DNA from: Pseudomonadota bacterium
GTDB taxonomy: Bacteria; Pseudomonadota; Gammaproteobacteria; Steroidobacterales; Steroidobacteraceae
Direction of reading: 5' to 3'
Assembly: GCA_019352035.1 (NCBI GenBank)
Contig: JABBNZ010000023.1
Span: forward strand, 1-46,983
DNA: 46,983 bases
The notes beneath the pieces were generated by a model. It saw nothing but the letters and a program-made list of their open reading frames with translations, did not search any database and was not told the DNA's origin. Below, one piece after another: positions 33,891 to 43,160 of the stretch; within the stretch, counting starts at the first letter, position 1, and each line of letters starts with the position of its first letter. The translations under genes were made by a program, and so were the position numbers.

Positions 33891-34709
33891 GTGACGGTGT
33901 CGAGCGACAGGTTTCCGACGTTCTATCTCAGCCACGGGGGCGGCCCTTGGCCCTACATGGACGAAGAGGCGCGCCGGCCGTACGCGCGGCTGGAGAAGTC
34001 CTTGAGGGAGCTGCCGCGGCAGCTGCCGCGCATGCCGGAGGCGATCCTCGTCGTCTCGGGGCACTGGGAGGCGGAGGAGTTTGCCGTCATGTCGGATGCG
34101 GCGCCGGCCATGATCTATGACTACGGCGGGTTTCCCGAGGAGCTTTACCACATCCGCTACCCCGCGCCCGGCTCACCGCGCCTCGCCGCTCGGGCGCTTT
34201 CGCTGATCCAACAGGCGGGCCTGTCCGCGCGCTCGAGTGCCGGCCGCGGCTTCGATCACGGGACATATGCGATCCTGGCGGTCACTCACCCGCAGGCCGA
34301 CGTGCCGGTGTTTCAGGTGTCGCTGCGCGCCGATTTCGACCCCGAGGCTCACTTGCGCCTCGGCAGGGCGCTCGCCCCGCTGCGGGACGAAGGGGTTCTC
34401 ATCATCGGCAGCGGCAGCAGCTATCACAACCTGCGCCGCTTCTTCGGCCCGCGCGGCCGCCGGGAGGATTCGGTGCAGTTCGATGCGTGGCTGCGCGAGA
34501 CGCTGGTCGATTCAGCCCCGGCCCAACGCTCGCAGCGCCTGCTGCAGTGGGAGCAGGCTCCCGCCGCGCGCGAGGCGCATCCGCGGGAAGAGCACCTCCT
34601 GCCGCTTCACGTCGCCGTGGGAGCGGCGGAGGAGGAGCCCGGAGCGGTCAACTATCGCGAGGATGACTTCCTGGGCTCCATCGCGCTTTCGAGCTACCGC
34701 TTCGGCTGA
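33891..34709 (+). CDS. DODA-type class III extradiol dioxygenase
   Basis: A 272-residue member of the LigB/DODA superfamily (YgiD-like), which cleaves catechols such as 4,5-DOPA next to the hydroxyls using Zn or Fe. Putative metal ligands are H15 (LSHGGGP), H58 (VSGHWE), the His in SGSSYHN and the His in LLPLHVAVG. The motif RGFDHGTYAILAV is also typical. The GTG at 33891 sits one base after the MerR-TPR stop; a second GTG (33897) is possible. It is convergent with wrbA, with 9 bp between stops. YgiD homologues are often stand-alone genes, so substrate in vivo is uncertain. Confidence 0.88.
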   Translation: MTVSSDRFPTFYLSHGGGPWPYMDEEARRPYARLEKSLRELPRQLPRMPEAILVVSGHWEAEEFAVMSDAAPAMIYDYGGFPEELYHIRYPAPGSPRLAARALSLIQQAGLSARSSAGRGFDHGTYAILAVTHPQADVPVFQVSLRADFDPEAHLRLGRALAPLRDEGVLIIGSGSSYHNLRRFFGPRGRREDSVQFDAWLRETLVDSAPAQRSQRLLQWEQAPAAREAHPREEHLLPLHVAVGAAEEEPGAVNYREDDFLGSIALSSYRFG

Positions 34710-34711
34710 GC

Positions 34712-34736
34712 GCGCGCCTCAGGGGCGCGCCATTTT
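34712..34736 (+). terminator. Candidate intrinsic terminator after the DODA dioxygenase
   Basis: A perfect 7-bp GC stem, GCGCGCC (34712-34718) with GGCGCGC (34724-34730), closes on a 5-base loop and is followed by CATTTT. It lies directly behind the dioxygenase stop and overlaps the 3' end of the convergent wrbA gene. The U tract is short, so efficiency is doubtful. Confidence 0.4.
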
Positions 34737-35327
34737 CGCCGCGATGCGGGTGACATGCTCACCCTGAAAGCGGCACATCTCGAGCTCGAGCGCGGAGGGC
34801 ATGCGCAGCTCCGCGCCGGCCCCGGTGACACAGCTTGCGCCGTAGGGGCTGCCGCCGGTCACTTCCCGCAGCGTCGTCAGGTCCTTGAACGTGTAGGGGA
34901 GGCCCACGATGATCATGCCGTGGTGCAGCAGAGTCAGGTGGAAGGAGGTGATGGTGGTCTCCTGGCCTCCGTGTTGACTCGCGGTGCTGCAGAAGACACT
35001 GCCCACCTTGCCGACCAGCGCTCCGCGCGCCCAGAGGGGGCCGGTCTGGTCGAGGAAGTTGCGCATCTGCGCCGCCATGTTGCCGAAACGGGTCGGGGTG
35101 CCGAAGATGATCGCATCGTACCGCTCGAGCTCTCCTGGGTCGGCGAGAGGGGCGGCCTGGTCCAGGCGAAAGCCCGACGCCTTGCAGACCTCGAGCGGCA
35201 CGATTTCCGCCACGCGCTTGACCTCGACTTCGGCGTCCGGAATCTTGCGGGCGCCTTCGGCCTGCGCCTGCGCCATGACCTCGAGATGGCCGTAGCTGCT
35301 GTAGTAGAGGACGAGGACCTTCGGCAT
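34719..35327 (-). CDS. wrbA: NAD(P)H:quinone oxidoreductase WrbA
   Basis: FMN-dependent two-electron quinone reductase, 202 residues, that avoids semiquinone radicals. The N-terminal [22 protein letters not shown] is the FMN phosphate loop of WrbA. The diagnostic [48 protein letters not shown] and PYTF follow, with GGSPYGAS near the end. Length and wording match E. coli WrbA closely. It is 9 bp upstream on the same strand from the hydrolase gene's stop at 35337 and could be part of that transcript. A redox-protective role beside dioxygenases that handle catechols or quinones is a reasonable inference. Confidence 0.96.
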
Positions 35328-35336
35328 GGTGTTCTC

Positions 35337-36164
35337 CTAGGAGAGTGAGTGGGCATGGCGCTCGAGGAACGCCCGCAGGACTGAGTTGTACGAAGACGGA
35401 TTGTCGAGATTCGGCAGGTGACGGGCCGCGGGGATGCGGGCGCGCTCCCCGAGCGCAAGCGCTGCGGCCAGCGCATCCGCCGCGCGTATCCGGGCCGGCA
35501 GATCGTGCTCGCCCGTGACGATCAGGGCGGGCGTGCGCAACGATGCGGTGATGGCGCGATCCCAATGATCCTCGGCCACGGGCTGCTCCTGCATCAGGTC
35601 AGCGCCGCTGTATCGAGCCGTCATCCGCTGCAGCAGGGCGCGCGAGTGCGGGGAGCGTGTTTCCAACTGCGTCAGGGGATGGCTCGCCCAGCGGCGGCGG
35701 AAGGTCTCGATGTCCCCGGCGGCAAGGAGGCTGCGATACTCGGCGAGCGGTACGTCCTCGCCCTCATTCGAGGCTGCGTCCACGAGAGCGGACGGCGGTC
35801 CGTCGAGAACGACGCAGGAAAACCGCTCCGGCGCGATCCGGCACAGCTGCAAGGCCACGCGGGCGCCCTGTGACATGCCGAGGCACGCGAGCCGCTCGAG
35901 TCTGAGCCGGTCGCACAGACCGAGCGCGTCACGCACATCGGCCGCCAGCGAGGCCCGCCCGGATGACAGGCCGAACCCGCGCCGGTCGAGCCGGATGAGA
36001 CGGAAGGAGCCGGCCAACTCCGCCACCTGCGGCTCCCACATGTCGAGGTCGAGCGTCCAGCCGTGGAGGAGCAGCACGGCCGGTCCGTGGCCCTCGTCGC
36101 GGTAGCGCAGGAGCGCCCCGGTGACGGGCAGGTAGCGGTCCGGGCTGGCCGGGGACGGTTGCAT
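35337..36164 (-). CDS. Alpha/beta hydrolase
   Basis: A 275-residue serine hydrolase with the oxyanion HGWTLDLDMW, nucleophile elbow GMSQG (S98), the acid Asp in VTGEHDLPARI and the catalytic His in AARHLPNLDNP. It resembles 3-oxoadipate enol-lactone hydrolase and similar C-C or ester hydrolases of aromatic degradation, but the exact substrate cannot be given. An IclR-type box (36172-36186), overlapped by a 9-bp inverted repeat, lies only 8 bp before the ATG. No Shine-Dalgarno sequence is visible there. The box links this gene to the IclR regulator that begins at 37066. Confidence 0.9.
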   Translation of the reverse strand: MQPSPASPDRYLPVTGALLRYRDEGHGPAVLLLHGWTLDLDMWEPQVAELAGSFRLIRLDRRGFGLSSGRASLAADVRDALGLCDRLRLERLACLGMSQGARVALQLCRIAPERFSCVVLDGPPSALVDAASNEGEDVPLAEYRSLLAAGDIETFRRRWASHPLTQLETRSPHSRALLQRMTARYSGADLMQEQPVAEDHWDRAITASLRTPALIVTGEHDLPARIRAADALAAALALGERARIPAARHLPNLDNPSSYNSVLRAFLERHAHSLS

Positions 36165-36171
36165 TCCGGGA

Positions 36172-36199
36172 ATTCGAATAGCGAAAGGTGTTTCGCTAT
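36172..36199. promoter_or_regulatory. Candidate IclR operator upstream of the hydrolase gene
   Basis: TTCG-N5-CGAA at 36173-36185 matches three copies in the iclR/lyase intergenic region. On the coding strand of the hydrolase TTTCGCTATTCGAAT agrees with TTTCGGTATCCGAAA at 12 of 15 positions. A longer perfect repeat, ATAGCGAAA (36178-36186) and TTTCGCTAT (36191-36199), overlaps it. Confidence 0.6.
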
Positions 36200-36256
36200 G
36201 AGGTTAGGGCGGGGACCCTGCACCGTCAAGCCAGCGTCTGCGCGCGCCCGTGCGCC

Positions 36257-37066
36257 TCAGACCTGCGCGCTCAGGGAGAGTCCGGGAATCGCGCGCAGAT
36301 CGGCGGAGATCTGACGGCTCAACTGCCGCAGCATGCCGAGCCGGCCCCGCACGAGCTTGGCCCGGGTGGTCTTGCCCGAGTGGCTCGAGGAGTTGAGCGC
36401 GGCGACGACTCTGCCGGACTGATCGAGAACCGGGACGGCGAGGGCAACCACCCCGTACGCGAGCTCATCGGCCACCGCCGCATAGCCGCAGCGGCGGCAG
36501 TCCTCGATGAGCGAGCGCAGCTCCCCGGGGTCGCGGACCGTCCGATCCGTCAGCGCCTCCAGCGTGGCGGTGTCGAAATAACGCTGCAGGCGTTCCGGGC
36601 TCAGGCCGGCGAGCAGAACGCGGCCCATCGAGGTCGCGTGGGCCGGAAAACGGCTGCCGACATGCGCCTCTAGCCGAAGCAGGGTTCGCACGGACGCGCG
36701 CGCGACGTAGACGATATCGTCGCCGTCGAGGACTGACATCGCCGCCGAGTCGCCGGTCTTGCGCGCGAGCTCCTCGAGGTGAGTCTTGGTCAGGTGCTCG
36801 ATGTCCATCGAGTCGAGATAGGCGGCGCCGAGCTCGAGGACCTTGGGCCGCAGGAGGAAGCTGCGGCCGTGACGGGTGACGTACCCGAGCTCCTCCAGAG
36901 TCAGCAGGCATCGGCGCGCCGTCGCGGCGGGAATGGCGGCGTTGCGGGCGATGTCGCTCAGGGTCGGCGCGGGATGTGCGCGTCTGAACGCGCGGATGAC
37001 CGCGATGCCCTTGGCGAGTCCTCCCATCGCTTCGCGACGGCTCTGTGGAATTTTGCGTGCAGCCAT
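36257..37066 (-). CDS. IclR-family transcriptional regulator
   Basis: A 269-residue IclR regulator with an N-terminal winged helix (about residues 14-70: KGIAVIRAFRRAHPAPTLSDIARNAAIPAATARRCLLTLEELGYV) and a C-terminal effector domain (SMGRVLLAGLSPERLQRYF, CRRCGYAAVADELAYGVVALAVPV). The wording resembles PcaR/PobR-type aromatic-acid regulators, but the effector is unknown. It is divergent from the citryl-CoA-lyase-like gene with 106 bp between starts. Three copies of TTCG-N5-CGAA lie in that space, one 14 bp upstream of its own ATG, which suggests autoregulation. A fourth copy controls the hydrolase gene downstream of it on the same strand. Confidence 0.94.
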   Translation of the reverse strand: MAARKIPQSRREAMGGLAKGIAVIRAFRRAHPAPTLSDIARNAAIPAATARRCLLTLEELGYVTRHGRSFLLRPKVLELGAAYLDSMDIEHLTKTHLEELARKTGDSAAMSVLDGDDIVYVARASVRTLLRLEAHVGSRFPAHATSMGRVLLAGLSPERLQRYFDTATLEALTDRTVRDPGELRSLIEDCRRCGYAAVADELAYGVVALAVPVLDQSGRVVAALNSSSHSGKTTRAKLVRGRLGMLRQLSRQISADLRAIPGLSLSAQV

Positions 37067-37079
37067 GACCGGGAGTCTA

Positions 37080-37094
37080 TTTCGGTATCCGAAA
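37080..37094. promoter_or_regulatory. IclR operator copy 1 (autoregulatory)
   Basis: TTTCGGTATCCGAAA, a perfect 6-bp inverted repeat with a 3-bp spacer. It lies 14 bp upstream of the iclR ATG and is identical to copy 3. Assignment to IclR is from position between divergent genes. Confidence 0.75.
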
Positions 37095-37107
37095 GGACGG
37101 AAGAGGC

Positions 37108-37149
37108 TTGACGGCGCTCGCGCGGCAGGTCACGATCGATTCGTATAAC
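37108..37149 (+). promoter_or_regulatory. Possible promoter for the lyase-like operon
   Basis: TTGACG (37108-37113) is a good -35. At 17 bp lies CACGAT (37131-37136), a poor -10. The only strong -10 look-alike, TATAAC (37144-37149), lies inside operator copy 2 and has no matching -35 at 16-18 bp. Either way operators 2 and 3 would cover the start of transcription. Confidence 0.35.
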
Positions 37150-37152
37150 GAA
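37140..37152. promoter_or_regulatory. IclR operator copy 2
   Basis: TTCGTATAACGAA, a perfect 5-bp inverted repeat around ATA with the same TTCG-N5-CGAA frame as the other copies. Its first base is 19 bp upstream of the equivalent base of copy 3, so the two lie close together on the helix. It overlaps possible promoter bases. Confidence 0.6.
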
Positions 37153-37157
37153 GCAGA

Positions 37158-37172
37158 TTTCGGTATCCGAAA
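37158..37172. promoter_or_regulatory. IclR operator copy 3, abutting the lyase-like gene start
   Basis: TTTCGGTATCCGAAA, identical to copy 1. It ends at 37172, directly before the ATG at 37173, and occupies the place of a Shine-Dalgarno sequence. Binding here would block transcription. The message would have either no leader or a leader without a normal ribosome site. Confidence 0.75.
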
Positions 37173-37979
37173 ATGAAGATCGGCCCGGCATCGGACCACG
37201 CCACCTCCCTCTGCGGCTCGACCGACGAGGCCATCTGGGTCCGCGGCCGCGACCTCGTCGCGGACCTGATGGGCAAGGTGGGCTTCACCGACTATTTCTG
37301 GCTGCTCGTGGCCGGCGCGGCTCCGACACCGGCGCAGAGCCGCATCCTCGATGCGACCCTGGTCGCCATCGCCGAGCACGGATTGGTGCCGAGCGTGCAG
37401 GCGAGCCGGATGACCCTCGCCGCGGCCCCGGAGGCGCTTCAGGGCGCCGTGGCCGCGGGGCTTCTCGGCTGCGGCTCGGTGATCCTCGGCTCGGCGGAGG
37501 CCGCCGGCCGCTTCCTCGCGCAGATCAACCGGCGCATCGGTGAGGGCGAGGCGGCGGAGGTCGCCGCCACCGCGGTGGTGCGCGAATACCGCGCCGAGCG
37601 GCGCGCGATTCCGGGATATGGGCACCCTCTGCACAAACGCGCCGATCCCAGGGCCGAGCGGCTCCTCGCCATCGCGCAGGAAGGCGGCACCGCCGGCAGA
37701 TACGCAGAGACGGCCCGCACGGTCGAGAGGCTCCTGCCCGAGCTCACCGGCAAGCCGCTGAAACTCAACGTGTCCGGCGCCATCCCCGCGGTGCTCCTTG
37801 ACGCCGGCTATCCGCTTCTCGGGTTGAAGGGGGTGCCGTTGCTGGCGCGTGCGGCCGGCCTCATCGCGCACCTCGTGGAGGAGCAGGCGCGCCCGATCGG
37901 GTTCGCGCTGTCCGAAGCCGCCGCGCAGGCGATCCGCTACGACGGCGAGGCACCGCCGGGAACGGCCCCGAAACCATGA
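37173..37979 (+). CDS. Citryl-CoA-lyase-like protein (short citrate synthase fold)
   Basis: A 268-residue member of the citryl-CoA lyase/ATP-citrate-lyase C-terminal group of the citrate synthase superfamily. Recognisable parts are IWVRGRDLVADLMGKVGF, GLLGCGSVILGSAEAAGRFL and GYGHPLHKRADPRAERLL, with the conserved His at 151. Two citrate synthase residues are not found: the segment holding the first active-site His reads GSVILGS, as expected for lyase-type members, and the Asp of NVD is Ser201 (LKLNVSGAIPAVLLD). So the reaction may differ from citryl-CoA cleavage. ATG 37173 is the first possible start after an in-frame stop. It overlaps the CoA-transferase by four bases (ATGA). Confidence 0.82.
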   Translation: MKIGPASDHATSLCGSTDEAIWVRGRDLVADLMGKVGFTDYFWLLVAGAAPTPAQSRILDATLVAIAEHGLVPSVQASRMTLAAAPEALQGAVAAGLLGCGSVILGSAEAAGRFLAQINRRIGEGEAAEVAATAVVREYRAERRAIPGYGHPLHKRADPRAERLLAIAQEGGTAGRYAETARTVERLLPELTGKPLKLNVSGAIPAVLLDAGYPLLGLKGVPLLARAAGLIAHLVEEQARPIGFALSEAAAQAIRYDGEAPPGTAPKP

Positions 37980-39157
37980 GCGCTCCCATCCAACACCCCG
38001 GGGGCCTCGGCGGAGCGCTCGCGGGCATACGCGTCATCGAGCAGGGCACCTTCATCACGGGCCCGTGCGCGGGGATGATGCTGGCCGACCTCGGCGCGGA
38101 TGTCATCAAGGTCGAGAGTCCGGAAGGGGATCCCTACCGCAGCTATCAGGGCGAGGCCTACTCGCCGCACTTCCAGGCCTACAACCGCAACAAGCGCGGC
38201 ATCGCCCTCGATTTGAAGCGCGATGCCGACCGGGCGCTCTTCGAGGGTCTGATCTGCGAGGCGGACGTCTTCATCCAGAACTTCAGGCCTGGCACCGCCG
38301 AGCGGCTGGGCGCCGGTCCCGAGCGCCTCCGGGACCTGAACCCGCGGCTGGTCTACTGCTCGATCAGCGGGTTCGGCAGCAGCGGCCCCTATGTCGGCCG
38401 GCCGAGCTACGACTCGGTGGCGCAGGCGCTGAGCGGCTTCCTGAGCGTGGTGGTCGATCCGCGCGATCCGCAGTTCCTGGGGCCTGCGCTGGCCGACGCC
38501 ATCACCGGCATCTACGCCGCTTACGGGGTTCTCGGGGCCCTGGTGCAACGGGGGCGCACGGGGCAGGGCACTCTCGTCGAGGTGTCGATGCTCGAGGCGA
38601 TGACGCACTTCGCCGTCGAGCCCTTCGCCGCGTATTTCGCGCTCGGCAAGGTGCCGACCTCCGGCGACCGGCCGCGCCTGGCGCAGGCCTACATCCTGCG
38701 AACCGCCGACGGCCGGCTGATCGTTCTGCACCTCTCCTCGCTCGAGAAATTCTGGACCGGCCTCGTCGAGGCGCTGGGCGACCCGCAGCTCGCGCGCGAT
38801 CCGCGCTTTCACACGCGCCTGGCGCGCATCGAGCACTATGAGGCGCTGCGAGCCGAGCTGATGGCGCGCTTCGGCACCGAGGATCTGGCGCACTGGGAAG
38901 AGCGGCTGCGCCGCAACGACGTGCCGCATGCGCCCATCAACCGGATCGACGAGGTCGTCGCCGATCCGCAGGTGGCGCATCTGGGGCTCATCGTTCCGGT
39001 GGAGTCGGCGCACGGGGGTGCGCAGGCGGTGCGCCCGCCGGTCAGATTCGCCGGCGAGCGTGCCGGCAGTGTCCGGGCGGCTCCGCTTCTCGATGAGCAC
39101 GGAGCCCAGATCCGCGACGCGCTTCGAGACGGCGCCCAATGGCCCGTCCGCAGGTGA
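37976..39157 (+). CDS. CaiB/BaiF family (class III) CoA-transferase
   Basis: A 393-residue class III CoA-transferase that moves CoA between acyl groups through an aspartyl intermediate. Family features are LAGIRVIEQGTFITGPCAGMMLADLGADVIKVESPEGDPYR, NRNKRGIALDLK and FIQNFRPGTAERLGAG, with the likely catalytic Asp174 in LADAITGIYAAYGVLGAL. The C-terminal HAPINRIDEVVADPQV is also typical. It starts in an ATGA overlap with the lyase-like gene, so the two proteins are probably made together and act on the same acid: CoA activation by this enzyme and C-C cleavage by its partner. The donor and acceptor are unknown. Confidence 0.95.
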   Translation: MSAPIQHPGGLGGALAGIRVIEQGTFITGPCAGMMLADLGADVIKVESPEGDPYRSYQGEAYSPHFQAYNRNKRGIALDLKRDADRALFEGLICEADVFIQNFRPGTAERLGAGPERLRDLNPRLVYCSISGFGSSGPYVGRPSYDSVAQALSGFLSVVVDPRDPQFLGPALADAITGIYAAYGVLGALVQRGRTGQGTLVEVSMLEAMTHFAVEPFAAYFALGKVPTSGDRPRLAQAYILRTADGRLIVLHLSSLEKFWTGLVEALGDPQLARDPRFHTRLARIEHYEALRAELMARFGTEDLAHWEERLRRNDVPHAPINRIDEVVADPQVAHLGLIVPVESAHGGAQAVRPPVRFAGERAGSVRAAPLLDEHGAQIRDALRDGAQWPVRR

Positions 39158-39204: not shown

Positions 39205-41454
39205 GTGCGCACATCTCATGCACGATGGCTGGCCGCGCTGATCATGGGGCTCTCGCCCCTGATCGCCATTCCTGCGCTCGCGCAGGTCCAGACTTTGAGC
39301 GAAGTGATCGTCACGGCCCGCAAGCGGCCGGAGCTCTTCCGCAATCTGCCGATGACCGCGAGCGTGTTCACGCCGCAGACCATCAAATCGGCCAACATCA
39401 CGAGCGCGCGCGACTTCATCGCGATGGTGCCGAACATGACGCTGGTCCAGACGCAGAACGTCGGGAACGCGTTCGTCACCATCCGCGGCATCTCCCAGGC
39501 CCGCAACAGCGAGCCGTCGGTCGCCGTGATCGTCGATGGCGTCGAGGAGACCGATCCGGAGGAGTTCGCCACCGAGCTCTACAACGTGCGGCAGATCGAG
39601 GTCCTGAAGGGACCGCAGGGCGCCCTCTACGGACGCGATGCCATCGGCGGCGCGATCATCATCACGACCGCCCCTCCGGCCGATCACTTCGAGGGCAACG
39701 TCACCGTCGGCGTGGGCAATGGGCCCGCGGAGCGCGCGCGCGGCACCGTAACCGGTCCGGTCAATTCCAGCGGCACGCTGAAGTACCGCGCGTCGGTCAA
39801 TTTCTACAACACTGGCGGCTACCTCCAGAACGTCTACCTGCATCGGAAAGCCGATCCCTATCGGGACTACTCCGGGACCTTCAGGCTCCTCTGGCAGCCG
39901 AACGCCTCCTGGACGCTCGATCTGCGCCCCTTCTACGATCTGGTGCACACAACGGCCTACTATTACGTCATTCCGCGCAACAACGAGGCGAATCCGTTCG
40001 CCACGTTCACCACGCCGCCCAACGCGAACGACATCACCAGTCCGATCCAGACCAACAATCTCGGCACGGACAACCGCGACATCATCGACATCCCGCTGAA
40101 GGTCGATTACCGTCCGGGATTCGGGACCTTCACCTCGATCACGGACTACGACCAGACGAAGGAGATCGATACCGGCGATGCTTATGACTTCCGGCCGATC
40201 AAGGGCTCGATCGCCTACAACGTCTTCTTCGCCGGGATCCCGGCGGCGCTCGGCGGCCCGTTCGACGAGAGCCAGAGCCAGTTCGTCCGGGTGCGCTCGT
40301 GGAGCGAGGATCTGCGCTTCACCTCGCCCTCGAAGGAGAGCTTCACCTGGATCGCGGGAGTCTATTTCCTGCACAAGGAGCGCTTCATCTCCACCGACAA
40401 CATCGTGGATCGCGGCCTCGGCGTTCCCGCGGTATACGAGACCCCGATCGTCAATCCGGCCAATCCCTTCGCCACCAATACGAACGTCACGTTCCTCGCG
40501 GACGGGCAGAAGAGCAATGCCTGGGCGGTTTACGGCGATGCCACCTACAAGCTCACCCAGCGCTGGGAGGTCGATCTGGCGGCGCGCTACGACCAGGACA
40601 AGGTCAGCGACACCACCGAAACGCCGCCGTATTTTCTCGCGATGGTCCTGGACCCCACCGCCTATACGGGCGAGGTGCGCACGCAGACCTGGGGCGCGTG
40701 GCAGCCGAAGTTCACCCTGAGGTACCAGCCGAACCAGAACTGGACGCTGTACACCGACTGGAGCCGCGGCTTCCGCAGCGGCGGATTCAACCAGACGGGT
40801 GTGGGTGCGGTTGCCCGTGCTAACGGCATCAAGGGTGTGAACGACACCTTCAACGCGGAGATTGCCGATACGTACGAGCTCGGCGTCAAGGGGGACATGC
40901 TGCATGACCGGCTGAGTGTGGATGCGGACGTGTTCCACACCCACTCGGACAACGGCTATTTCTTCGTGTATCTCTCCCAGAATTCCACGCAGAACCTCGG
41001 CAATCTGAACGCGACCTACAAGGGGGCCGAGTTCCAGATCACGGCCTATCCGACCGACCATCTGCAGGTGTATGCCGGCTATGGCTATACGGACAGCCGG
41101 ATCACCAAGATGACCGATCCCAGCGTGCTCGGGAACCAGGCGCCGCTCGTCTCGCGCGACACCATCAATGCGGGCGCGATGTACCAGCATCACGTCTGGG
41201 CCAACCTCAAGGGGACGGCTCGCCTCGACTTTCAGAACATCGGGCGCACCTGGTGGGACCCGTACAACGTGACCTCGCGCAATCCGATATCGCTCGTCAA
41301 CCTCAACCTCAGCCTCCAGGGCGGCCGCTGGACGGTCATCGCCTGGTCGAAGAACCTCACCAATACCCTATACAATGCCGAGTTCTCACCAGGCGGGTTC
41401 CTCTGGCGGGCTCTGCCCCGCCGTTACGGGGTCGATTTCGAGTATCGCTTCTGA
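39205..41454 (+). CDS. TonB-dependent outer membrane receptor
   Basis: A 749-residue TonB-dependent transporter. The signal peptide (MRTSHARWLAALIMGLSPLI, cleaved near ALAQ) is followed by a TonB-box-like SEVIVTARK and a plug domain (LPMTASVFTPQTIKSANI, RQIEVLKGPQGALYGRDAIGGAIIITTAP). The barrel ends in a terminal Phe (GVDFEYRF). Start is GTG at 39205 with AGGGGG at about 39191-39196. It lies 47 bp after the CoA-transferase and 12 bp before the VOC gene, all on one strand, so it probably imports the substrate of this cluster. It differs in size and wording from the receptor at 26.5-29.1 kb. Confidence 0.95.
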   Translation: MRTSHARWLAALIMGLSPLIAIPALAQVQTLSEVIVTARKRPELFRNLPMTASVFTPQTIKSANITSARDFIAMVPNMTLVQTQNVGNAFVTIRGISQARNSEPSVAVIVDGVEETDPEEFATELYNVRQIEVLKGPQGALYGRDAIGGAIIITTAPPADHFEGNVTVGVGNGPAERARGTVTGPVNSSGTLKYRASVNFYNTGGYLQNVYLHRKADPYRDYSGTFRLLWQPNASWTLDLRPFYDLVHTTAYYYVIPRNNEANPFATFTTPPNANDITSPIQTNNLGTDNRDIIDIPLKVDYRPGFGTFTSITDYDQTKEIDTGDAYDFRPIKGSIAYNVFFAGIPAALGGPFDESQSQFVRVRSWSEDLRFTSPSKESFTWIAGVYFLHKERFISTDNIVDRGLGVPAVYETPIVNPANPFATNTNVTFLADGQKSNAWAVYGDATYKLTQRWEVDLAARYDQDKVSDTTETPPYFLAMVLDPTAYTGEVRTQTWGAWQPKFTLRYQPNQNWTLYTDWSRGFRSGGFNQTGVGAVARANGIKGVNDTFNAEIADTYELGVKGDMLHDRLSVDADVFHTHSDNGYFFVYLSQNSTQNLGNLNATYKGAEFQITAYPTDHLQVYAGYGYTDSRITKMTDPSVLGNQAPLVSRDTINAGAMYQHHVWANLKGTARLDFQNIGRTWWDPYNVTSRNPISLVNLNLSLQGGRWTVIAWSKNLTNTLYNAEFSPGGFLWRALPRRYGVDFEYRF

Positions 41455-41466
41455 GCTGGAGACATC

Positions 41467-42015
41467 ATGGCTACCCTCGCAAAGCTGCCTTCCCGGCTGC
41501 ACCACACGGCCTACGTCACCAACGATCTGGAGGCCACACGCAAGTTCTATGAGGATGTGATCGGCCTGCCGCTGGCGGCCACCTGGTGCGAGGTCGATCA
41601 GCTCTTTGGCGCGGAGCGGGTCTACTGTCATCTGTTCTTCGAGATCGGCGACGGCGGCGCGCTGGCGTTCTTCAAGTTCGCGAGTCCGGAGGATCAACAG
41701 CAATTCGGCCCCGAGATGCCCTTCTCGCCGTTTCATCACATCGCCCTGAACGTCGATGCCGACACCCAGGCCGAGATCGAGCGGCGGCTCGCGCAGGCCG
41801 GATATGCCCCGCCGAAGACTTTCGTGCTCGAGCACGGGTATTGCCGCTCGGTGTACGTCACCGACCCAAACGGCCTCATCCTGGAGTTCACGCGCGATCA
41901 CCCGCAGGTGGCGCAGATCGCGCGGACCCGGCGCGCCAACGCCCACGCGGAGCTTCAGCGCTGGATGGGGGGCGACCACACCTCCAACAACACCTATCGG
42001 CCCGAAGGCGCCTGA
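41467..42015 (+). CDS. VOC-family (glyoxalase/extradiol-like) protein
   Basis: A 182-residue vicinal-oxygen-chelate protein with paired beta-alpha-beta-beta-beta modules. The first carries LHHTAYVTNDLEATRKFYEDVIGLPL (His12/13), the second PFHHIALNV and VYVTDPNGLILEF, giving the His, His, Glu metal-binding pattern of dioxygenases and glyoxalase-type enzymes. A helical C-terminal extension follows. It may be a ring-cleavage dioxygenase, an epimerase or a lyase; the family alone does not tell. It sits 12 bp after the TonB receptor and overlaps the MetE-like gene by one base (TGATG). Confidence 0.88.
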   Translation: MATLAKLPSRLHHTAYVTNDLEATRKFYEDVIGLPLAATWCEVDQLFGAERVYCHLFFEIGDGGALAFFKFASPEDQQQFGPEMPFSPFHHIALNVDADTQAEIERRLAQAGYAPPKTFVLEHGYCRSVYVTDPNGLILEFTRDHPQVAQIARTRRANAHAELQRWMGGDHTSNNTYRPEGA

Positions 42016-43160
42016 TGCGGCGCAGCACCGATCGGATCCTGACGACCCACGTCGGAAGCCTGCCCCGCACTCAGGCGGTGACGGATGTGCTGTTCGCGCG
42101 TGCCGCGGGGGAGCCTGACGGGCCGGGAGCGGCCGGCACCATCGCCAGCGCAGTGAAGGATGTCGTGCGCCGCCAGGTGGAGGTCGGCATCGACATCGTC
42201 AGCGACGGCGAGATGAGCAAGATCAGCTATGCGACCTACGTGTCCGAGCGGCTCTGCGGCTTCGATGGCGACACGCCGCGGGAGCCGGGACAGGACCTGG
42301 TGGAGTTTCCGGGGCTGCTGAAGAAGCTCGCGGAGCGGGGGTCGACGGCCAAATACCGCAGGCCCCGCTGCGTCGGGCCCGTGGCGGTGAAGGACACGCG
42401 GCCGCTCGACGCGGACCTCGGGAACCTGAAGGCGGCGGTGACCGCTGCCTCGGCGCAGGAGGCGTTCATGAACGCCGCTTCGCCGGGCGTCGTCGCTTTG
42501 TTTCAGCCCAACGATTTCTACCCGACCCAGGATCAGTACCTCGAGGCGCTCGCCGAGGCCCTGCGCAGCGAGTACGAGGCGATCGTCGCCGCCGGGTTCC
42601 TGCTGCAGATCGATGCGCCCGATCTCGGCATGGGGCGGCACACGATGTACCGCGACCGCACCGAGGAGGAGTTCACGGGGCTCGCGGCCAGGCACATCGA
42701 GGTGCTCAATCACGCCTTGCGCCATGTCCCGGCGGACCGGGCGCGCATGCACGTATGCTGGGGAAATTACGAAGGCCCGCACCATCATGACGTGCCGCTC
42801 GCGCGGCTGCTGCCGGTGGTGCTGCGCGCCAAGCCACAGGCACTGCTTTTCGAGGGCGCCAACCCGCGCCATGCGCACGAGTGGGCCGTGTTCAAGGACG
42901 TCGAGGTTCCCGATGACAAGATCCTGATTCCCGGGGTCATCAGCTCGACGACCAATTACGTGGAGCATCCGCTTCTCGTCGCGGAGCGGCTGGAGCGGCT
43001 CGCCGGGGTGGTGGGCCGGGAGCGTGTCATCGCGGGCAGCGACTGCGGCTACGGAACCTTCGCCGGATTCGGGCCGGTGGAGCCCGACATCGTCTACATG
43101 AAGCTCGGCGCTCTGGTCGAAGGCGCGCGGATCGCGAGCGGCAGGCTCTGGCGATCCTGA
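42015..43160 (+). CDS. MetE C-terminal-domain-like (cobalamin-independent methionine synthase family) protein
   Basis: A 381-residue protein similar to the catalytic C-terminal half of MetE only, the fold shared with epoxyalkane:CoM transferase. Zinc-site residues appear to be present: His and Cys in MHVCWGNYEGP, Glu in LLFEGANPRHAHEW, and Cys in AGSDCGYGTF. The N-terminal MRRSTDRILTTHVGSLPR is typical. It lacks the N-terminal half of full MetE, so it is not a standard methionine synthase. It may transfer a methyl or alkyl group to or from a thiol or a substrate of this cluster. ATG 42015 shares one base with the VOC stop. An O-methyltransferase gene runs convergent with it. Confidence 0.87.
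   Translation: MRRSTDRILTTHVGSLPRTQAVTDVLFARAAGEPDGPGAAGTIASAVKDVVRRQVEVGIDIVSDGEMSKISYATYVSERLCGFDGDTPREPGQDLVEFPGLLKKLAERGSTAKYRRPRCVGPVAVKDTRPLDADLGNLKAAVTAASAQEAFMNAASPGVVALFQPNDFYPTQDQYLEALAEALRSEYEAIVAAGFLLQIDAPDLGMGRHTMYRDRTEEEFTGLAARHIEVLNHALRHVPADRARMHVCWGNYEGPHHHDVPLARLLPVVLRAKPQALLFEGANPRHAHEWAVFKDVEVPDDKILIPGVISSTTNYVEHPLLVAERLERLAGVVGRERVIAGSDCGYGTFAGFGPVEPDIVYMKLGALVEGARIASGRLWRS

Follow-up and report, generated by a model that had tools for sequence, protein, structure and literature searches.

Palindromic sites around an iclR gene predict a small regulon for aromatic compounds

Four palindromes of the pattern TTCG-N5-CGAA are very probably the operators of the IclR-family protein that is encoded between them, which would repress a small aromatic regulon. 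They lie in a window of 46,983 bp (the whole stretch of DNA that was analysed). The predicted regulon has the following units: hydrolase–wrbA; iclR itself; lyase–CaiB–TonB receptor–VOC–MetE; and an unlinked flavin monooxygenase (FMO), found in four related genomes. Computation establishes the presence and rarity of the sites, the way they are conserved together with the regulator, the tandem geometry and the unlinked target.

The sites and their rarity

The initial annotation had placed four sites at 36173, 37081, 37140 and 37159, and these are indeed the only exact matches to TTCG-N5-CGAA in the full window. It had also considered four sites in 1 kb to be far from chance, which is confirmed: dinucleotide-shuffled windows contain 0.76 sites on average and three at most (0/100 reach four), and of 300 third-order Markov simulations, one gives a total of four sites and none gives more than two sites per 1 kb. 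As had been noticed, two sites are identical over 15 bp: the sequence TTTCGGTATCCGAAA is common to the sites at 37081 and 37159, and these two are its only exact copies in the 4.5-Mb genome. No Rfam match was found in the window at the gathering threshold.

The sites are not four equal units (Table 1): a tandem pair precedes the lyase gene, a palindrome and a half-site precede the hydrolase gene, and iclR has a single site. The centres of the tandem pair (37140/37159) are 19 bp apart, and the pair stops 1 base before the lyase ATG (37173). Eight bases separate the 36173 site from the hydrolase ATG (36164, − strand), and 14 bases separate the 37081 site from the iclR ATG (37066, − strand). The other arm of the half-site at 36192 overlaps the putative −10 element of the hydrolase, in a three-box operator, and the tandem scan finds 36173-36204 as a match with three mismatches.

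Table 1. Predicted operators, putative promoters and genes (window positions)
Feature	Position	Strand	Sequence	Basis
Palindromic operator before hydrolase, predicted	36173-36185		TTCGAATAGCGAA	exact pattern match; similar site in relatives
Extra half-site	36192-36199		TTCGCTAT	spaced 19 bp from the palindrome at 36173; also recognisable by eye in close relatives
Palindromic operator within putative iclR promoter, predicted	37081-37093		TTCGGTATCCGAA	exact match and conservation
Lyase tandem operator, box 1, predicted	37140-37152		TTCGTATAACGAA	exact match, tandem scan, conservation
Lyase tandem operator, box 2, predicted	37159-37171		TTCGGTATCCGAA	19 bp from box 1
Putative hydrolase promoter	36201-36229	−	−35 TTGACG (36229-36224), 17 bp, −10 TAACCT (36206-36201)	read from sequence
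Putative iclR promoter	37074-37103	−	−35 CTTCCG (37103-37098), 18 bp, −10 TAGACT (37079-37074)	read from sequence
Putative lyase-operon promoter	37108-37136	+	−35 TTGACG (37108-37113), 17 bp, −10 CACGAT (37131-37136)	TTGAC conservation
WrbA-type NAD(P)H:quinone oxidoreductase	34719-35327	−		TIGR01755, 291.5 bits (cut-off 132.5)
Alpha/beta hydrolase, 3-oxoadipate enol-lactonase-like	35337-36164	−		profile matches
IclR-family regulator, near PcaR/PcaU/PobR subfamily	36257-37066	−		PF09339 and PF01614; PDB 8eju, E 6e-55
Citryl-CoA lyase-like protein, citrate synthase fold	37173-37979	+		NF004868; PDB 6hxp, E 5e-34
Class III (CaiB/BaiF) CoA-transferase	37976-39157	+		PF02515
TonB-dependent receptor	39205-41454	+		domain match; occurrence in related loci
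VOC-fold protein, candidate ring-cleaving dioxygenase	41467-42015	+		PF00903
MetE-like protein (Meth_synt_2 domain)	42012-43160	+		domain match; final gene of likely operon

A pattern that was frequent in unrelated regions would speak against a regulon, as the initial annotation had pointed out. This is partly so for the loose TTCG-N5-CGAA pattern, which occurs 50 times genome-wide against 37 for the mirror-image control, so that eight bases without further constraint come close to background in the rest of the genome and are weak evidence alone. It is not so when an A/T (W3) core is required: the count then drops to seven, against none for the control. These seven sites are the four of the window, one before the FMO gene on contig C97, one within a tRNA-Ala gene and one unexplained. 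The tRNA site (C181:1728) was rejected as a member of the regulon because of its location; this tRNA-Ala(CGC) gene (L165:1697-1772) fits the operator pattern by coincidence, and its letters TTCGCAATGCGAA recur in related genomes. The unexplained site is an isolated core-type site, TTCGGTTAACGAA, at C166:24081 (L164:4082), between thioredoxin-like and helicase-like reading frames.

The tandem pattern with up to three mismatches is at background in this genome (10 matches, 12 for the control), which counts against the regulon. So does C32:9908, another tandem match with one mismatch, which was rejected as a member because the A/T core is absent; C40:10151 was rejected because its core is not W3.

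Conservation across relatives

The lyase loci that we compared come from named records, of which the best 80 of 272 were kept; the counts before the lyase in this paragraph refer to these 80. Where IclR is at least 65% identical, all 18 loci have at least two exact sites in the 300 bp that precede the lyase. Where it is 39–64% identical, at least one site precedes the lyase in 4 of 21 loci, and 20 of the 21 have a site at most 260 bp from the iclR start. Where no IclR was found in the fetched locus, at least one site precedes the lyase in 3 of 41 loci (L039, L045 and L054), and two sites do so in 2 of 41. The mirror control gives no match before the lyase (0/80). One of the three site-bearing loci that have no IclR, L039, appears to match contig C8 of genome G010 (G010:C8), which carries the lyase cluster; in G010, a different contig encodes the IclR, and a single exact site lies close to it.

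Upstream of iclR, 24 of 25 regions have at least two exact sites, and the W3 core is present in 55 of the 62 exact sites of these regions. Of the 25 regions, 12 belong to genus genomes and 13 to the 18 named loci with an IclR of at least 65% identity; the five named loci that were excluded are L037, L038, L056 and L087 (paired with G069:C306, G064:C168, G047:C4 and G045:C53, respectively) and L070, whose iclR is not divergent from the lyase. At the threshold used, IclR is present in 12 of 58 genus genomes, this one included. Among the four closest genomes, arm positions are invariant in 24/24 cases compared with 45/67 positions outside the sites (Fisher P 0.0004), and core positions in 11/15.

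A site like that at 36173 precedes the hydrolase in most of the relatives compared, the exceptions being L078 and L081. This comparison covers 22 loci, of which L041 and L047 have no hydrolase match and L163 has masked bases; the hydrolase start is uncertain in the more distant ones.

Tandem geometry is also seen on an unannotated Niveispirillum plasmid, where exact tandem operators of 19 bp stand between divergent lyase and CaiB genes, and again between iclR and a TonB receptor gene. Seven of the nine proteins tried have relatives encoded on this plasmid, the monooxygenase and MetE being the two without. A tandem scan of relatives (up to two mismatches) was not used as evidence: 25 of 40 genomes match, and the control matches in 14 of 40 rows. 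Its G010:C8 match is the lyase operator there.

That the sites define an IclR regulon, as the initial annotation had proposed, is supported by this conservation across species in step with the regulator, a prediction drawn from sequence comparison. The hydrolase had been tied to the lyase/CoA-transferase operon as a physically separate gene: the tie is supported, but only one gene, iclR, separates the hydrolase from the lyase.

Operators and putative promoters

In all 24 regions that have the lyase, a TTGAC motif precedes the first lyase box by 30–39 bp, and 3 bp separate the putative lyase −10 CACGAT from this box. The hexamers of the putative hydrolase promoter, with their 17-bp spacing, stand before the half-site, and TTGACG and TA(A/C)CCT are also visible in L152-L155. 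The 37081 operator fills the spacer of the putative iclR promoter, both hexamers of which are invariant in the four closest genomes. Further away they are less constant, which counts against our reading: of 25 iclR regions, 15 have AGTCTA (+ strand) among their first 20 bases, and 11 have CGGAAG at any position. The putative iclR −10 sits 7 bp before the ATG (window 37064-37079), which suggests that the iclR transcript is possibly leaderless.

The putative −10 hexamers are weak, and a consensus promoter scan found no sigma-70 promoter, those of the hydrolase, iclR and lyase being all uncalled, so that the promoter and repression step is one that we infer. The location of the operators, just downstream of the putative −35/−10 elements or inside the spacer of the iclR promoter, suggests repression.

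An unlinked flavin monooxygenase

The initial annotation had proposed scanning the genome for further members, and the scan yielded one: an A/T-core site lies before the gene of a FAD aromatic monooxygenase on another contig, C97 (L036:7733-9349). There, a tandem operator of the IclR type, with boxes starting 25 and 44 bp before the ATG, has the same 19-bp spacing as the lyase pair and one mismatch. From this operator, the FMO would be a truly unlinked member of the regulon.

Of the 57 other genus genomes, three have an orthologue of the FMO (at least 81% identical), and it is these three that have the closest IclR (89–91%). In all four FMO genomes, this one included, a 19-bp tandem precedes the FMO, each time with one arm mismatch and with different core letters. 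Two FMOs at 47% identity have no tandem operator upstream. The four genomes may form one clade, which the co-occurrence of FMO and IclR may then reflect, and so we read the operator as conserved within a lineage rather than gained several times. Over the 17 kb of G063 and the 4.6 kb of two others that were compared, none of the genes that flank the FMO on C97 is conserved alongside it, and the FMO is absent from the lyase loci as fetched (0/80, the best 80 of 272).

The four FMO genomes contain five to eight A/T-core sites each, compared with none or one for the control. In G063, two extra core-type sites were rejected because they lie within reading frames, and a third (C28:137326) has letters identical to those of the tRNA site. 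Five unlinked core-type sites, hand-picked from a longer list (G045, G046 and G068), have no tandem partner within three mismatches.

The FMO has the PF01494 and Rng_hyd_C domains, as in aromatic hydroxylases. Its best structure matches are RubL and GrhO5, with RdmE among the next, and none of the 25 NCBIfam families listed for it is above cut-off.

Genes of the cluster and possible pathway

The regulator belongs to the IclR family according to the scores of its HTH_IclR (PF09339, 54.8 bits, cut-off 22) and IclR_C (PF01614, 146.1 bits, cut-off 24) domains. The lyase-like protein scores 326.9 bits against the citryl-CoA lyase subfamily NF004868 (cut-off 193), which would place it in this subfamily. 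The homologues of the VOC protein, where the source names them, are called VOC, glyoxylase I or catechol 2,3-dioxygenase-like. The junctions between the rightward genes, from lyase to MetE-like, are short or overlapping. On the other side, wrbA adjoins the hydrolase gene in many relatives and is likely co-transcribed with it. A LigB-type gene is also present in the window (33891-34709). MetE-like (Meth_synt_2) proteins recur in such clusters, for instance twice in L043 (9967-11079 and 14829-15968) and in L040:4669-5700.

The class of the FMO, the dioxygenases of related loci (intradiol in L043, LigB-type in L076) and the similar plasmid clusters make aromatic ring degradation the likely function. 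One such cluster is on a plasmid of Rhodococcus rhodochrous BX2 (NZ_CP027558.1, L194:9526-16252), where genes annotated as citryl-CoA lyase, CoA transferase, VOC, FAD-dependent oxidoreductase, alpha/beta hydrolase and IclR lie side by side. The citryl-CoA lyase, CoA transferase, VOC and IclR are 43%, 37%, 64% and 39% identical to the window proteins, respectively. Unlike here, the BX2 FAD enzyme is only 26% identical over 278 residues and the hydrolase has no match; no exact site precedes the lyase or VOC gene of this plasmid.

The gene types, and these only, also resemble the fde cluster of Herbaspirillum (naringenin) and the ifc cluster of Variovorax (isoflavone), which according to the consulted parts of PMC11069340 and PMC8552027 combine an FMO with a small glyoxalase-like ring-cleaving protein and an alpha/beta hydrolase. 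The words IclR, lyase and CoA-transferase are absent from the main text of PMC11069340, and we regard the link to these flavonoid pathways as a lead only. Tentatively, the regulon could mark an undescribed aerobic route in which the FMO and the small VOC dioxygenase open the ring, the class III CoA-transferase activates the product and the lyase-like enzyme splits it, the unlinked FMO having been captured by gaining a tandem operator; we consider this scheme possible, though doubtful.

Comparison with known IclR systems

IclR-family factors mainly regulate the metabolism and transport of aromatic compounds, according to the part of PMC8222616 consulted. There, Suvorova and Gelfand describe the WTT-11-AAW motif (WTTYCRYW3RYGRAAW), tandem sites 18–22 bp apart and three-box IclR operators. 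The sites of the window resemble this group 1 motif in their TTTCG...CGAAA-like arms, odd spacing and location near gene starts, the TTCG/CGAA arms and W3 core being present in all four; the 19-bp spacing at the lyase and the FMO falls in the published range for centres. Unlike the full consensus, the Y/R beside the W3 core are not kept: 37079-37095 reads ATTTCGGTATCCGAAAG, which departs at Y, R and the last W, so that WTT-11-AAW is the closest motif type only. As the motif and the spacing match patterns published for the family, as far as that part of the source goes, this would be a new regulon of a known kind.

Among the titles and abstract openings covered, a partial set of the open literature, none describes this regulon. 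The regulon itself would be new, while the kind of regulon is well known.

Mechanism and alternatives

From sequence features, we infer binding, repression, an inducer and a pathway, as follows. Without inducer, IclR would bind, two dimers probably occupying boxes that are separated by two turns of the helix. At the lyase and hydrolase promoters it would sit just downstream of the −10 elements, and at iclR between the two hexamers, and block transcription. Release of IclR would come from an inducer, for which the aromatic substrate or a product of ring cleavage is the probable candidate. The products of the regulon could import, hydroxylate and cleave an aromatic ring, then CoA-activate and split the product.

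It is unlikely, although it deserves consideration, that the same regulon is controlled by an activator or a protein of dual role, the promoters being elsewhere. The nearest named subfamily is PcaR/PcaU/PobR, which regulates the beta-ketoadipate pathway, and PobR and PcaU are called activators in a reference title, so that repression by the IclR protein is not certain. The protein scores 272.7 bits against this subfamily (TIGR02431), under the cut-off of 284.75, and the palindrome and half-site of the hydrolase resemble the three-box motifs of PcaU, PobR and HmgR in the part of the source consulted, and that of PcaR likewise. The weak −10 hexamers and the empty promoter scan would also fit with promoters located elsewhere. 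On the contrary, the TTGAC that stands 30–39 bp before the first box in all 24 lyase regions, if it is a −35 element, puts the boxes downstream of the promoter, and the iclR box is flanked by two hexamers that do not vary among the four closest genomes. The operators are hence placed as expected for a repressor (as far as the putative promoters go), which is unlike PcaU, PobR and PcaR, as is the hydrolase, whose score of 90.7 bits is under the PcaD cut-off (TIGR02427, 255.85).

It is much less probable that another regulator binds the sites, which would be conserved with the cluster by coincidence. The assignment to IclR comes from sequence alone, but the sites track the linked iclR gene, one site persists near an unlinked iclR (L159) and the arms fit the published group 1 motif, as given in the part of PMC8222616 consulted. 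A chance origin can be dismissed, and so can a structural element of the repeat or RNA hairpin type: the near-background frequency of the loose pattern and the core-type site inside a tRNA-Ala gene are outweighed by the clustering in shuffles and simulations, the invariant arms, the recurrence in 18/18 loci and the empty Rfam search.

Repression by the IclR protein is thus the reading that we retain. It gives an IclR protein that is uncharacterised a regulon that can be tested, and by linking genes of separate contigs in a single candidate pathway it would narrow the search for the substrate.
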